A stretch of 46,569 bases of DNA from a virus. Position numbers and translations under genes: made by a program. This document shows positions 3,665-9,719 of the stretch, piece by piece. The DNA lies in IMG/VR virus record IMGVR_UViG_3300010883_000060, positions 1-46,569 of that record. The stretch is one strand, 5' to 3'. The notes beneath the pieces are model-generated. The model was given only the letters and a program-made list of their open reading frames with translations. It made no database searches and was not told the DNA's origin. How positions within the stretch are numbered: position 1 is the stretch's first letter; every line of letters starts with the position of its first letter.

Positions 3665-4267
3665 TTGAGCATAGCCTTTGTATTAGGTAACGGCACTAGC
3701 CGGACCTCTATACCTTTAACCCCACTAAGAAAATTTGGAACTATATATGCTTGTAATGCAGTATATAGAGAGTTCAAACCTGACTACTTGGTTGCAGTTG
3801 ATACAAAAATGGTCAACGAAATTGTACAACATAGATATCACTTAGAAGGTCAAGTTTGGACAAATTATAATAAATCATATGAACGTTACACTGGACTTAA
3901 TTACTTTGAGCCAAGCAAAGGATGGAGTAGCGGTCCAACAGCATTGGACCTTGCAAGCAGTCATGGACATAAAACAATATACATATTAGGATTTGACTAT
4001 CAAGGAATAGGTCCCGAATACAAACGTGTAAACAATTTATATAGTAGTTCGCCTAATTATAAACGCGAACACGATACAGCAACTTATTATGGCAATTGGT
4101 TACGCCAAACAACTACTGTTTTTCAGAAAAATAACGAAAAGAGATATATAAGAGTAATAGTAAATGATAAAGGATTTATTCCAGAACCATTTGCAAACTT
4201 TGCTAACATTTCACATGTTACAATGGAGGATTTTGCAAAATCTTTCAATTTTGGCCTTGTAAAATAA
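3665..4267 (+). CDS. DUF115/MptE-like Rossmann-fold protein, TTG start
   Basis: The 200-residue product begins with a Rossmann-type strand and phosphate-loop-like turn (SIAFVLGNGTSR). It continues with YACNAVYREFKPDYLVAVD and a second hallmark segment, SGPTALDLASSHGHKTIYIL followed by GFDY. This pattern is known from the DUF115/MptE-like superfamily, which includes nucleotide-sugar and pterin-phosphate enzymes. Substrate cannot be read from the sequence. An in-frame TAA sits directly before the TTG at 3665, so TTG is the first possible start in this frame. GGAG at 3653-3656, inside the preceding gene, is spaced correctly for it. An enzyme-like fold inside a head-assembly operon is unexpected and might modify a virion component. 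Confidence 0.7.
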   Translation: MSIAFVLGNGTSRTSIPLTPLRKFGTIYACNAVYREFKPDYLVAVDTKMVNEIVQHRYHLEGQVWTNYNKSYERYTGLNYFEPSKGWSSGPTALDLASSHGHKTIYILGFDYQGIGPEYKRVNNLYSSSPNYKREHDTATYYGNWLRQTTTVFQKNNEKRYIRVIVNDKGFIPEPFANFANISHVTMEDFAKSFNFGLVK

Positions 4268-7077: not shown

Positions 7078-8250
7078 ATGTCAGAACTACTTGAAAGTCG
7101 CTGGCAGGAAACGAAAACTGCATTGCTAGAAGGTCTAGGCGGAACTAAGAAATCCGTTATGGCAACAACACTGGAAAATACACGCAAGTATTTGTCAGAA
7201 ACAGCAACCGCAGGAACAACTTCCGCCGGTAATGTCGCAACTCTTAACAGAGTTATTTTACCAGTAATTCGTCGTGTAATGCCAACGGTAATTGCAAACG
7301 AACTAGTTGGCGTACAGCCAATGACTGGTCCAGTGGGTCAAATCCACACTTTACGTGTTCGTTATTCAGACACGTTTAACGCAGGTGCATCAGGCGCAAC
7401 TGCAGGTGAAGAAGCACTATCACCATTTAAGATTGCTGAGTCTTACTCAGGTAACACCAACGGTAAAGCAGATGCTACAGCCGCTAAAGAAGGTGTGCCA
7501 GGGAATAAACTAAGTATCCAGATCCTAAAACAGACTGTTGAAGCGAAAACTCGTAAGTTGAGTGCTCGTTGGACGTTTGAAGCGGCTCAGGATGCTCAGT
7601 CACAGCATGGTATCGATGTAGAAGCAGAAATTATGGCGGCTTTGGCCCAAGAAATTACTGCTGAGATCGACCAGGAAGTATTGGCTTCATTGCGTACACT
7701 AAGTGGTACAGCAGTTGAGACATACGACCAATCAGCAGTAAGTGGTACAGCAACTTTTGTTGGAGACGAACACGCCGCATTGGCAGTTCAGATCAACAGA
7801 GCGGCTAACCTAATCGCTCAGCGTACAAGACGTGGTGCGGGTAACTTTGCAGTGGTAAGTCCATTTGCATTAACAGTACTTCAATCAGCAACAACTTCAG
7901 CGTTCGCAAGAACAACTGAAGGTACGTTCGAAGCACCAACAAACACTAAGTTTGTAGGTACATTGAACAATGCTATGAAAGTATATGTTGATACATATGC
8001 AGGCGACGGCACAGCAGTACTAGTAGGATACAAAGGTACATCTGAATCAGATGCTCCAGCGTTCTACTGCCCATACATCCCGTTGATGTCAAGTGGCGTT
8101 GTAATGGACCCAGATACATTTGAACCAGTAGTGTCATTTATGACACGTTACGGTTATGTTGAATTGTCTAACACAGCATCTTCACTTGGTAACGCAGGTG
8201 ACTACTTAGCGAATGTAGCGATTACAAACGCAAGTGTAAACTTTAGTTAA
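7078..8250 (+). CDS. gp23: Major capsid protein (gp23)
   Basis: The 390-residue product contains recognisable gp23 segments: LNRVILPVIRRVMPTVIANE, VGVQPMTGPVGQIHTLRVRY, the aromatic CPYIPLMSSGVVMDPDTFEP and VVSFMTRYGYVELSN. A gp21-type cleavage site (Leu/Ile-X-Glu) occurs as L39-S40-E41, which would remove a short helical propeptide. It is clearly shorter than T4 gp23 (521 residues), and shorter than most cyanophage versions as far as I recall. The gene ends the head-assembly block and is followed by a strong intrinsic terminator. An AGGAG site precedes the ATG. Confidence 0.96.
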   Translation: MSELLESRWQETKTALLEGLGGTKKSVMATTLENTRKYLSETATAGTTSAGNVATLNRVILPVIRRVMPTVIANELVGVQPMTGPVGQIHTLRVRYSDTFNAGASGATAGEEALSPFKIAESYSGNTNGKADATAAKEGVPGNKLSIQILKQTVEAKTRKLSARWTFEAAQDAQSQHGIDVEAEIMAALAQEITAEIDQEVLASLRTLSGTAVETYDQSAVSGTATFVGDEHAALAVQINRAANLIAQRTRRGAGNFAVVSPFALTVLQSATTSAFARTTEGTFEAPTNTKFVGTLNNAMKVYVDTYAGDGTAVLVGYKGTSESDAPAFYCPYIPLMSSGVVMDPDTFEPVVSFMTRYGYVELSNTASSLGNAGDYLANVAITNASVNFS

Positions 8251-8270: not shown

Positions 8271-8294
8271 ATAGGCGCTACGGCGCCTATTTTT
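8271..8294 (+). terminator. Intrinsic terminator after gp23
   Basis: A perfect eight-pair stem (arms ATAGGCGC and GCGCCTAT) closes on a TACG loop, giving the exceptionally stable C(UACG)G motif in RNA. A T run follows. It ends the capsid transcript 20 bases after the gp23 stop. Most of it is duplicated at 9111. Confidence 0.9.
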
Positions 8295-8300
8295 ATGACT
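8274..8300 (+). repeat. 27-bp direct repeat, left copy, flanking the lyase cassette
   Basis: Bases 8274-8300 are identical to 9111-9137, and identity stops sharply at both ends. This copy keeps the full terminator stem; the outer three pairs of the stem lie outside the repeat. Confidence 0.92.
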
Positions 8301-8323
8301 AAATATTTTGGTAAAATTTCTTA

Positions 8324-8352
8324 TTGACTAATCTCATATAATTGTATATAAT
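8324..8352 (+). promoter_or_regulatory. Host-type sigma-70 promoter (TTGACT-N17-TATAAT)
   Basis: TTGACT at 8324-8329 and a perfect TATAAT at 8347-8352 are separated by 17 bases, the ideal spacing. The expected start is near 8359. It is the only strong host-type promoter noticed and serves only the secreted protein gene. A late-like TATAAATT (8358-8365, one mismatch) lies just downstream, so the gene might also be read late. Confidence 0.82.
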
Positions 8353-8373
8353 GTATATATAAATTGATATGAG
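8333..8373 (+). promoter_or_regulatory. Inverted repeat that would hide the ribosome-binding site in read-through RNA
   Basis: CTCATATAATT (8333-8343) pairs with AATT-G-ATATGAG (8362-8373), giving eleven pairs with one bulged G. The 18-base loop holds the -10 element. The 3' arm overlaps the GAGG at 8371-8374 that serves the start at 8381. Only RNA begun upstream of the promoter contains both arms. Confidence 0.6.
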
Positions 8374-8380
8374 GTATATG

Positions 8381-9079
8381 ATGAAAAAGTTACTACTTGG
8401 ATTAACATTTGCAATATTAACCGCAACTTCAGTGCAAGCACAACAATGGGTGTCTAGTTGTGGTAGTAGTAGTTGGTCTAAAGAATTTTTCAAATCAAAT
8501 TACACTTTTACAGTACGTAAAGGCGAAATAGGCGGTTGTGAAGATGATAGTAAAAAACATTTTTCAGGACAGTGGGATTTTTCAGAACGACAAGAAGTTT
8601 GGTCTAAACCCGCTTGGAGAGCAAACAAAAATGAATTTGGTAAATGGGAATGGAGTGCAACTGTTAATATTGATCGTGCTTGTAGACCTGCTTTGAGAAG
8701 TACAATAGTACAAGTTCATGGTGGTCACAACACTGCTACTAAGCCAGATGGTCCTCCTAGTTTTCTTGCAGTAAATTATGCTAACAAATTTAGAGGAGCA
8801 TACGGTCCATTTAATAAAAACGGAAAATCATCTTGGCACCTAGGTCCAGGAGATATCGAAATTCCTAAACAACCATTTCACGTTCGTATGCAAACCGAAT
8901 GGATTAAAGAAGATTATATAAAAACTGACTACTGGATTGATGGTAAGTTTCTTGGTAGTGAAAAAGTAGATGCTAAAGGCTTTACAAAATTATTTATTAA
9001 GTTTGGTGTATATCGTGTAAACAGTAATTGTAATATTACACAAGCATATAAAAATGTTTCACTTAAAAAAATAAAATAA
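8381..9079 (+). CDS. Secreted polysaccharide-lyase-like jelly-roll protein (phage moron)
   Basis: The 232-residue product starts with a clear Sec signal peptide: MKK, a hydrophobic core, and VQA before a predicted cut at A20/Q21. The mature part resembles the heparin-lyase-I-like jelly-roll family (Pfam Polysacc_lyase, PF14099): YTFTVRKGE with GG near the N-terminus, VQVHGGHN followed by GPPSFLAV, TDYWIDGKFLGS, and the closing KLFIKFGVYR. Four cysteines could form two disulfides outside the cytoplasm. The start at 8381 is best spaced from GAGG, though in-frame ATGs at 8369 and 8378 exist. The gene has its own promoter and terminator and interrupts the structural block. It could act on host or competitor polysaccharide, or alter the envelope during infection; activity is unproven. 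Confidence 0.75.
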   Translation: MKKLLLGLTFAILTATSVQAQQWVSSCGSSSWSKEFFKSNYTFTVRKGEIGGCEDDSKKHFSGQWDFSERQEVWSKPAWRANKNEFGKWEWSATVNIDRACRPALRSTIVQVHGGHNTATKPDGPPSFLAVNYANKFRGAYGPFNKNGKSSWHLGPGDIEIPKQPFHVRMQTEWIKEDYIKTDYWIDGKFLGSEKVDAKGFTKLFIKFGVYRVNSNCNITQAYKNVSLKKIK

Positions 9080-9084
9080 AAGGT

Positions 9085-9107
9085 TAACATCTTCTATAAT
9101 GATGTTA
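9085..9107 (+). other. Hairpin after the lyase-like gene
   Basis: TAACATC (9085-9091) and GATGTTA (9101-9107) form a seven-pair stem with a nine-base loop. No T run follows directly, but the terminator copy begins four bases later. It may protect the 3' end or aid termination. Confidence 0.45.
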
Positions 9108-9110
9108 TAC

Positions 9111-9131
9111 GGCGCTACGGCGCCTATTTTT
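9111..9131 (+). terminator. Intrinsic terminator after the lyase-like gene (shortened stem)
   Basis: GGCGC and GCGCC form a five-pair stem with the same TACG loop as the gp23 terminator, followed by a T run. The three outer pairs of the gp23 version are missing because the bases just upstream (TAC) do not pair, as expected if only the 27-bp repeat unit was copied. Confidence 0.82.
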
Positions 9132-9137
9132 ATGACT
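9111..9137 (+). repeat. 27-bp direct repeat, right copy, flanking the lyase cassette
   Basis: Identical to 8274-8300. Together the copies bracket the promoter, the secreted lyase-like gene and nothing else, a unit of 837 bases. Confidence 0.92.
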
Positions 9138-9161: not shown

Positions 9162-9169
9162 GATAAATA
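9162..9169 (+). promoter_or_regulatory. Late promoter GATAAATA
   Basis: Matches the marine T4-like late octamer form NATAAATA. It lies 88 bases before the ATG at 9258. The leader contains a small stem (CCACA-CACT-TGTGG) and an AGGAGA ribosome-binding site. Confidence 0.6.
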
Positions 9170-9257
9170 CTTATGTCGTAAATCGTGCCACACACTTGTG
9201 GACTTATGCAGAACTGACCCACTGCGTATTACATAGAACGTAACTTAGGAGAAACAA

Positions 9258-9719
9258 ATGGGTAGACCATTAAATAAAAGATTATTTGGAGCCGCTGGTG
9301 TTGGACCAACAGCCGCTGGCGCTGAAATTAAAGTAAACTTTCACAACGGTACAGCCGTTAAAGAAGGTTATATTGTAAAGCAAAAAGCAACTAAGAAATT
9401 TGTATGCGAAGAAATTGGTACAGGTGGATTATTTACTTGCACACTAACAACTGGTAAATTACCAGCGGCATTAGCGGCAGGTGAAATGTCAATCATGGTA
9501 TTAGGCAACGATGCAGAAACTTACAATGTAGCAAAAATTAGTGCTAAACGTGTAACACTTGCTAATCCAAGTGCGACTGGTGACAACGTATTAGGCGGGT
9601 TATCACAAGCATGGCAAGCAGGTGCCGCGGCTTCAGCAGGCGTAGTACGCATGGAAGAAGCAGGCGATAACAATACACTAGTTGGTACTGATGATGACGA
9701 CTTTACAGAAGACGCATAA
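9258..9719 (+). CDS. Accessory virion protein, MGRPLNK family, copy 1
   Basis: The 153-residue product begins MGRPLNKRLFGAAGVG and continues as a predicted all-beta domain (KVNFHNGTAVKEGYIVKQK, CTLTTGKLPAALAAGEMSI). It closes with an Ala/Gly-rich part and an acidic tail (GTDDDDFTEDA). The next gene begins almost identically, so the two are tandem paralogues. Position just after the capsid region and a late promoter suggest a capsid-decorating or other small structural protein. I do not recognise a named family. The start has an AGGAGA site. Confidence 0.7.
   Translation: MGRPLNKRLFGAAGVGPTAAGAEIKVNFHNGTAVKEGYIVKQKATKKFVCEEIGTGGLFTCTLTTGKLPAALAAGEMSIMVLGNDAETYNVAKISAKRVTLANPSATGDNVLGGLSQAWQAGAAASAGVVRMEEAGDNNTLVGTDDDDFTEDA

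Follow-up and report, generated by a model that had tools for sequence, protein, structure and literature searches.

A cargo gene between two copies of the gp23 terminator in the variable slot behind the major capsid gene of a T4-like phage

Features between gp23 and the next late gene

The window, that is, the whole stretch of 46,569 nt that was analysed (positions 1 to 46,569 of IMG/VR record IMGVR_UViG_3300010883_000060), encoded a gp23 major capsid protein. The nearest isolates by gp23 were jumbo T4-like phages (about 70% amino acid identity), which differed among themselves in the content downstream of gp23. The following features were recognized on the plus strand.

7078–8250, +: gp23 major capsid protein gene, fixed left neighbour of the slot (PF07068, E = 1.6e-99)
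8271–8300, +: predicted gp23 terminator hairpin with the left repeat copy (repeat itself 8274–8300); perfect 8-bp core stem
8304–9100, +: putative mobile cassette, bounds from blastn matches in L003 and L004, where the context is unrelated
8324–8352, +: predicted early-type (sigma-70-like) promoter of the cargo gene (TTGACT-17-TATAAT, 11/12 match)
8369–9079, +: cargo gene, an ORF for a 236-aa protein with a signal peptide that is typical by eye
9082–9110, +: putative truncated second promoter at the apparently cut cassette end (TTAACA-16-TATAC)
9111–9137, +: right copy of the 27-bp terminator repeat (27/27 identity, 5-bp stem)
9162–9169, +: T4-type late promoter GATAAATA, recognized by sequence; most relatives have it in the same position
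9187–9260, +: freshwater-2 RNA leader (RF02980) of the next structural gene (47.8 bits, E = 6e-6)
9258–9719, +: next late gene, an ORF of 153 aa, fixed right neighbour

The repeat GGCGCTACGGCGCCTATTTTTATGACT was identical at all 27 positions in 8274–8300 and 9111–9137. This exact duplication, reported in the initial annotation, was confirmed: with up to three mismatches allowed, the two copies remained the only ones in the window, and shuffled sequences predicted none. The same 27 bases were thus not a general property of unrelated terminators in these 46.6 kb. As judged from sequence, a terminator (hairpin and T-run) was predicted on either side of the unit, the right one being weaker. The earlier statement on the stems was likewise reproduced, with eight pairs and a folding energy of −19.1 kcal/mol on the left versus five pairs and about −11 to −12 kcal/mol on the right. 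L001 and L002, which come from other assemblies, showed the same repeat-bracketed arrangement (~99.8% identity), so it was not an assembly slip in the window.

Homology to L003 and L004, two contig fragments without gp23, covered positions 8307–9100 and 8304–9100 of the window (blastn, 88–89% identity) and stopped just inside both repeats; the rest of these loci had no match to the window. In L003 and L004, a Rieske-like or IscU-like gene (names assigned by eye) was located upstream of the shared gene, and tRNA-like genes downstream. As the initial annotation had supposed, the cargo gene is a separate mobile unit; the comparison confirms this at the sequence level, since two further phage contigs carry the gene in an unrelated location.

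The same annotation had placed one promoter, one signal-peptide gene and nothing else between the repeats. The promoter and the gene were recovered, while the "nothing else" had to be given up because of the truncated promoter-like sequence at 9082–9110. This sequence resembled the promoters of manA RNA units in relatives and, in L003 and L004, the promoter that follows the gene, and the right end of the cassette looks like a promoter, apparently of manA type, cut at its −10 element. The predicted cargo promoter was the best-scoring one in the first 20 kb of the window and was preceded by the palindromic ATTTTGGTAAAAT, an upstream box also found with promoters of relatives. A palindromic box ATTTTGGTAAAA(T) was located a few bases 5′ of the −35 element in the window (8305–8320) and at promoters in L184, L086, L143, L187 and L196. 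This box, common in the early-type promoters of the group, is possibly a regulator or UP-like site.

The cargo protein shared 89% amino acid identity with its homologues in L003 and L004. The dN/dS of the gene against L004 was 0.16 (NG86) or 0.07 (YN00), indicating that it is under purifying selection. Searches of Pfam, PHROGs, NCBIfam and INPHARED returned nothing convincing, GTDB genomes contained no relative of the protein, and the gene was present in no isolate of the phage collection searched; in IMG/VR, only two lineages carrying it were found. The initial annotation had likened the protein to the heparin-lyase-I-like family PF14099. This assignment was not supported: the profile gave no match to the full protein at E values up to 1 or to the mature protein or C-terminal part at E values up to 10, and none was obtained either when the window was searched for the family together with three related records (E up to 10). 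Two AlphaFold runs on four close sequences reached a pLDDT of 47–50. The best matches of the fold model were jelly-roll folds, namely galectins, CBM66, and PL7 and PL20 lyases (E about 1e-4, sequence identity about 6–15%, TM-scores about 0.3–0.6), and no catalytic residues could be assigned in the cargo protein; since both runs had low confidence, these matches serve as leads only. Judging by its signal peptide, the cargo protein is probably exported. Based on the model, it is possibly a beta-jelly-roll carbohydrate-active protein and may bind or cleave a polysaccharide. The label lyase is a guess.

A cargo slot behind gp23 in relatives

In relatives, the gp23 terminator was followed by the cargo, the GATAAATA late promoter, the freshwater-2 leader and the next virion gene. 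The leader in the window scored below the gathering threshold (47.8 versus 49.9 bits) with a full-length alignment, and relatives' leaders at the same place passed. The 153-aa product of the right neighbour had no match in Pfam, PHROG or NCBIfam.

A GC hairpin with a T-run, most commonly in the form ATAGGCSCTWCGGSGCCTATTTTTWTGACT, was present at nearly all of the ~138 distinct gp23 junctions (IMG/VR loci with enough downstream sequence). The terminator was thus conserved after gp23 in well over 100 relatives, from which we infer that the left copy is the ancestral gp23 terminator. The initial annotation had reached the same polarity from the stem lengths, an argument that was not relied on here. 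Across all fetched loci, 95 distinct hairpins of the gp23-terminator type were located directly after gp23; those elsewhere were the right copy of the window, the right copy of L012/L124/L194, and hairpins in L161, L169, L200 and L197 (contig end). Because a pattern and gp23 itself served as queries for retrieving the loci, this count is biased towards gp23. The duplicated right copies in the window and in L012/L124/L194 carried an additional base between ATA and GGC that none of the listed gp23 copies had.

Junctions were readable in 82 cases, in which the leader was recognized by a simple motif, and were termed empty if the leader lay within 220 nt. Empty sites with a single terminator, as foreseen in the initial annotation, made up 26 of the 82, and 56 were occupied. 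On the gp23 tree, which held 78 of these junctions, the empty or occupied label changed 16 times, with at least 10 changes forced by well-supported branches. Two pairs (L091/L093 and L127/L167) had opposite slot states despite identical gp23. The cargo types recognized with Pfam were AdoMet decarboxylase, NifU_N/IscU, CHAP, TonB-dependent receptor, DUF6580 and winged helix, and with Rfam, glutamine riboswitches (RF01739) and manA RNAs (RF01745) were found as common occupants. The expectation of different cargo behind the same terminator was therefore borne out, in L012/L124/L194 even with a second, independent terminator duplication. Most occupied sites had no duplicated terminator; with clear cases at only 2 of the ~138 distinct junctions (the window and L012/L124/L194), duplication is not the usual outcome. 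We consider it probable that the spot downstream of gp23 is a cargo hotspot in a group of aquatic T4-like phages, at which units are gained, lost and swapped by recombination.

The closest relative by gp23, L184 (96.4%), carried a glutamine-riboswitch gene, a manA-type RNA (named by position and sequence) and then a TonB-receptor-like gene. In L012, L155, L184 and others, a glutamine riboswitch in front of a small ORF lay about 50–150 nt downstream of gp23 or of the second terminator copy. Often, the next element was a manA RNA equipped with a promoter and a terminator of its own. L184, L086 and L202 encoded a TonB-dependent receptor-like outer membrane protein with a signal peptide, 3′ of the manA-type RNA and an early promoter. 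The L086 protein comprised a plug and a barrel; receptor masking or nutrient uptake are possible roles for this cargo.

Breakpoints and the origin of the right copy

Four pairs of near-identical phages (L127/L167, L091/L093, L123/L108 and L158/L109) agreed through the gp23 terminator, and the indel that distinguished them began in the terminator tail. Its right end coincided with the poly-T of the second terminator in the latter three pairs and was less sharp in L127/L167; the overlap at the right end was 5–7 nt in L091/L093 and L123/L108. L012 and L113 (gp23 98% alike) differed by a segment that started with a second gp23-type terminator and whose edges had a short A-rich word in common. These comparisons, in which gain and loss cannot be told apart for most pairs, indicate that gene exchange between relatives has its borders at terminator motifs.

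We propose that the gp23 terminator acts as the constant left border of the hotspot, and that cargo units with their own early-type promoter are placed between two terminators. With this promoter and the two flanking terminators, the cargo should not disturb the late operon. Short stretches of homology at terminators and promoters would provide the joints. The right copy in the window would then have arisen either by joining of the cut promoter end of the cassette to a gp23-type terminator, for which the gp23 terminator of another phage is a candidate donor, or by exchange between two similar terminators. The spacing between the right copy and the leader does not discriminate between origins, since the 77 nt observed fit both empty sites (61–79 nt, one at 100) and the occupied class (65–86 nt). 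The right flank of the window was less like typical empty-site flanks than like the flank behind the second terminator of L143, its best match (3 of 200 shuffles were as good), which slightly favours overwriting of a position-equivalent second terminator. Such gene conversion, in which an earlier, different second terminator was replaced by the gp23 version through recombination at the hairpin, is one route within the proposed explanation. As an account of its own it is plausible, though we hold it to be less probable than not. The second terminators of relatives had the same hairpin layout and a TTGAC tail, and candidates in L143, L153 and L184 were alike to the repeat at 20–21 of 27 positions; however, the right copy had no counterpart to the left arm of the longer stem of second terminators, and the manA RNA, normally located 5′ of the second terminator, was absent from the window.

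The initial annotation had read the duplication as the footprint of an insertion at the hairpin. A cassette, perhaps a small circle with one terminator, would in that case have entered through one crossover with the gp23 terminator, which left a direct repeat on both sides. The terminator–cargo–terminator topology of two unrelated cases (the window and L012/L124/L194) is consistent with this, as are the ATA+1 nt+GGC form of the extra copy in both and the ancestral state of the left copy. However, the repeat was absent around most cargo, the right flank of the window was not clearly an empty-site flank, the cassette's own right end fell in a cut promoter, and the ORF list of the window's slot contained no integrase or recombinase gene. 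The footprint reading is therefore weaker than claimed and, in our view, unlikely: given the many occupied sites without a repeat and the L143-like right flank, the repeat is accounted for equally well or better by illegitimate recombination or by an exchange involving two similar terminators. It is similarly doubtful that the capsid-gene terminator is a true landing site at which cargo circles with a terminator copy integrate by hairpin crossover; if so, this phage family would have a built-in, terminator-addressed dock for receptors, metabolic genes, secreted proteins and riboswitch units. Independent evolution of two hairpins of similar form would find some precedent in L161, L169 and L200, where other genes are also accompanied by hairpins of this loop and tail, but the 27/27 identity extended into the ATGACT after the tail, shuffles predicted no such match, and there was no further copy in 46.6 kb, which makes chance or convergence a very remote prospect. 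The pattern looks like the promoter/terminator-cassette shuffling of T4-like phages rather than a dedicated insertion system.

Relation to known mobile cassettes

PeSL cassettes in T4-like phages were reportedly described by Arbiol et al. (2010) and Comeau et al. (2014). According to passages in PMC4503421 and PMC4177764 that cite such work, promoter-early stem-loop (PeSL) elements are mobile cassettes that shuffle genes between T4-like phages. As described there, PeSLs resemble the present slot in that early promoters and terminator stem-loops delimit the cargo and mediate its shuffling among related T4-like phages. In contrast to PeSLs, the slot is built on a constant element that belongs to the major capsid gene, its terminator, and has the cargo promoter apart from this element; the site is another one, and the sequences apparently differ as well. 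That terminators can delimit cassettes in T4-like phages had been proposed in print before. PeSL-type features in the window and its relatives were the predicted sigma-70-like promoter inside the unit (11/12 at 8324–8352), the predicted terminators on either side of it and the gene exchange among relatives that is bordered by such motifs. As to a composite motif of terminator and promoter, the tails of relatives' terminators continued into TTGAC, but in the window the two elements are apart and the terminator alone is repeated. The case fits the known promoter/stem-loop cassettes and adds new instances in its location, its cargo and the duplication of the capsid-gene terminator.

Pelagimyophages and cyanomyophages contain hypervariable islands and AMG regions, including a large island between VrlC and gp14 (PMC7029224). 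In the passages of that paper on islands, these are similar to the present slot in carrying variable, partly host-derived cargo in a syntenic T4-like structural module, and a slot downstream of gp23 is not described. The manA RNA is covered in PMC2864571. Units with this RNA or the glutamine riboswitch occupied the slots of relatives, whereas the window kept freshwater-2 only, together with the apparently cut manA-type promoter.

Empty, occupied and duplicated sites form a natural series for cargo exchange amid a conserved virion module. The breakpoints in this series fall at transcription terminators, and the duplicated terminator leaves the exchange route partly readable. The slot also offers a single spot for cataloguing host-derived phage genes, such as those for AdoMet decarboxylase, IscU, the TonB-dependent receptor and secreted proteins. 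Elsewhere in the window, an ORF in the head-gene cluster (3665–4267) matched phrog_30607 and, weakly, an alpha-2,3-sialyltransferase family; it is a possible host-surface gene within the virion module.
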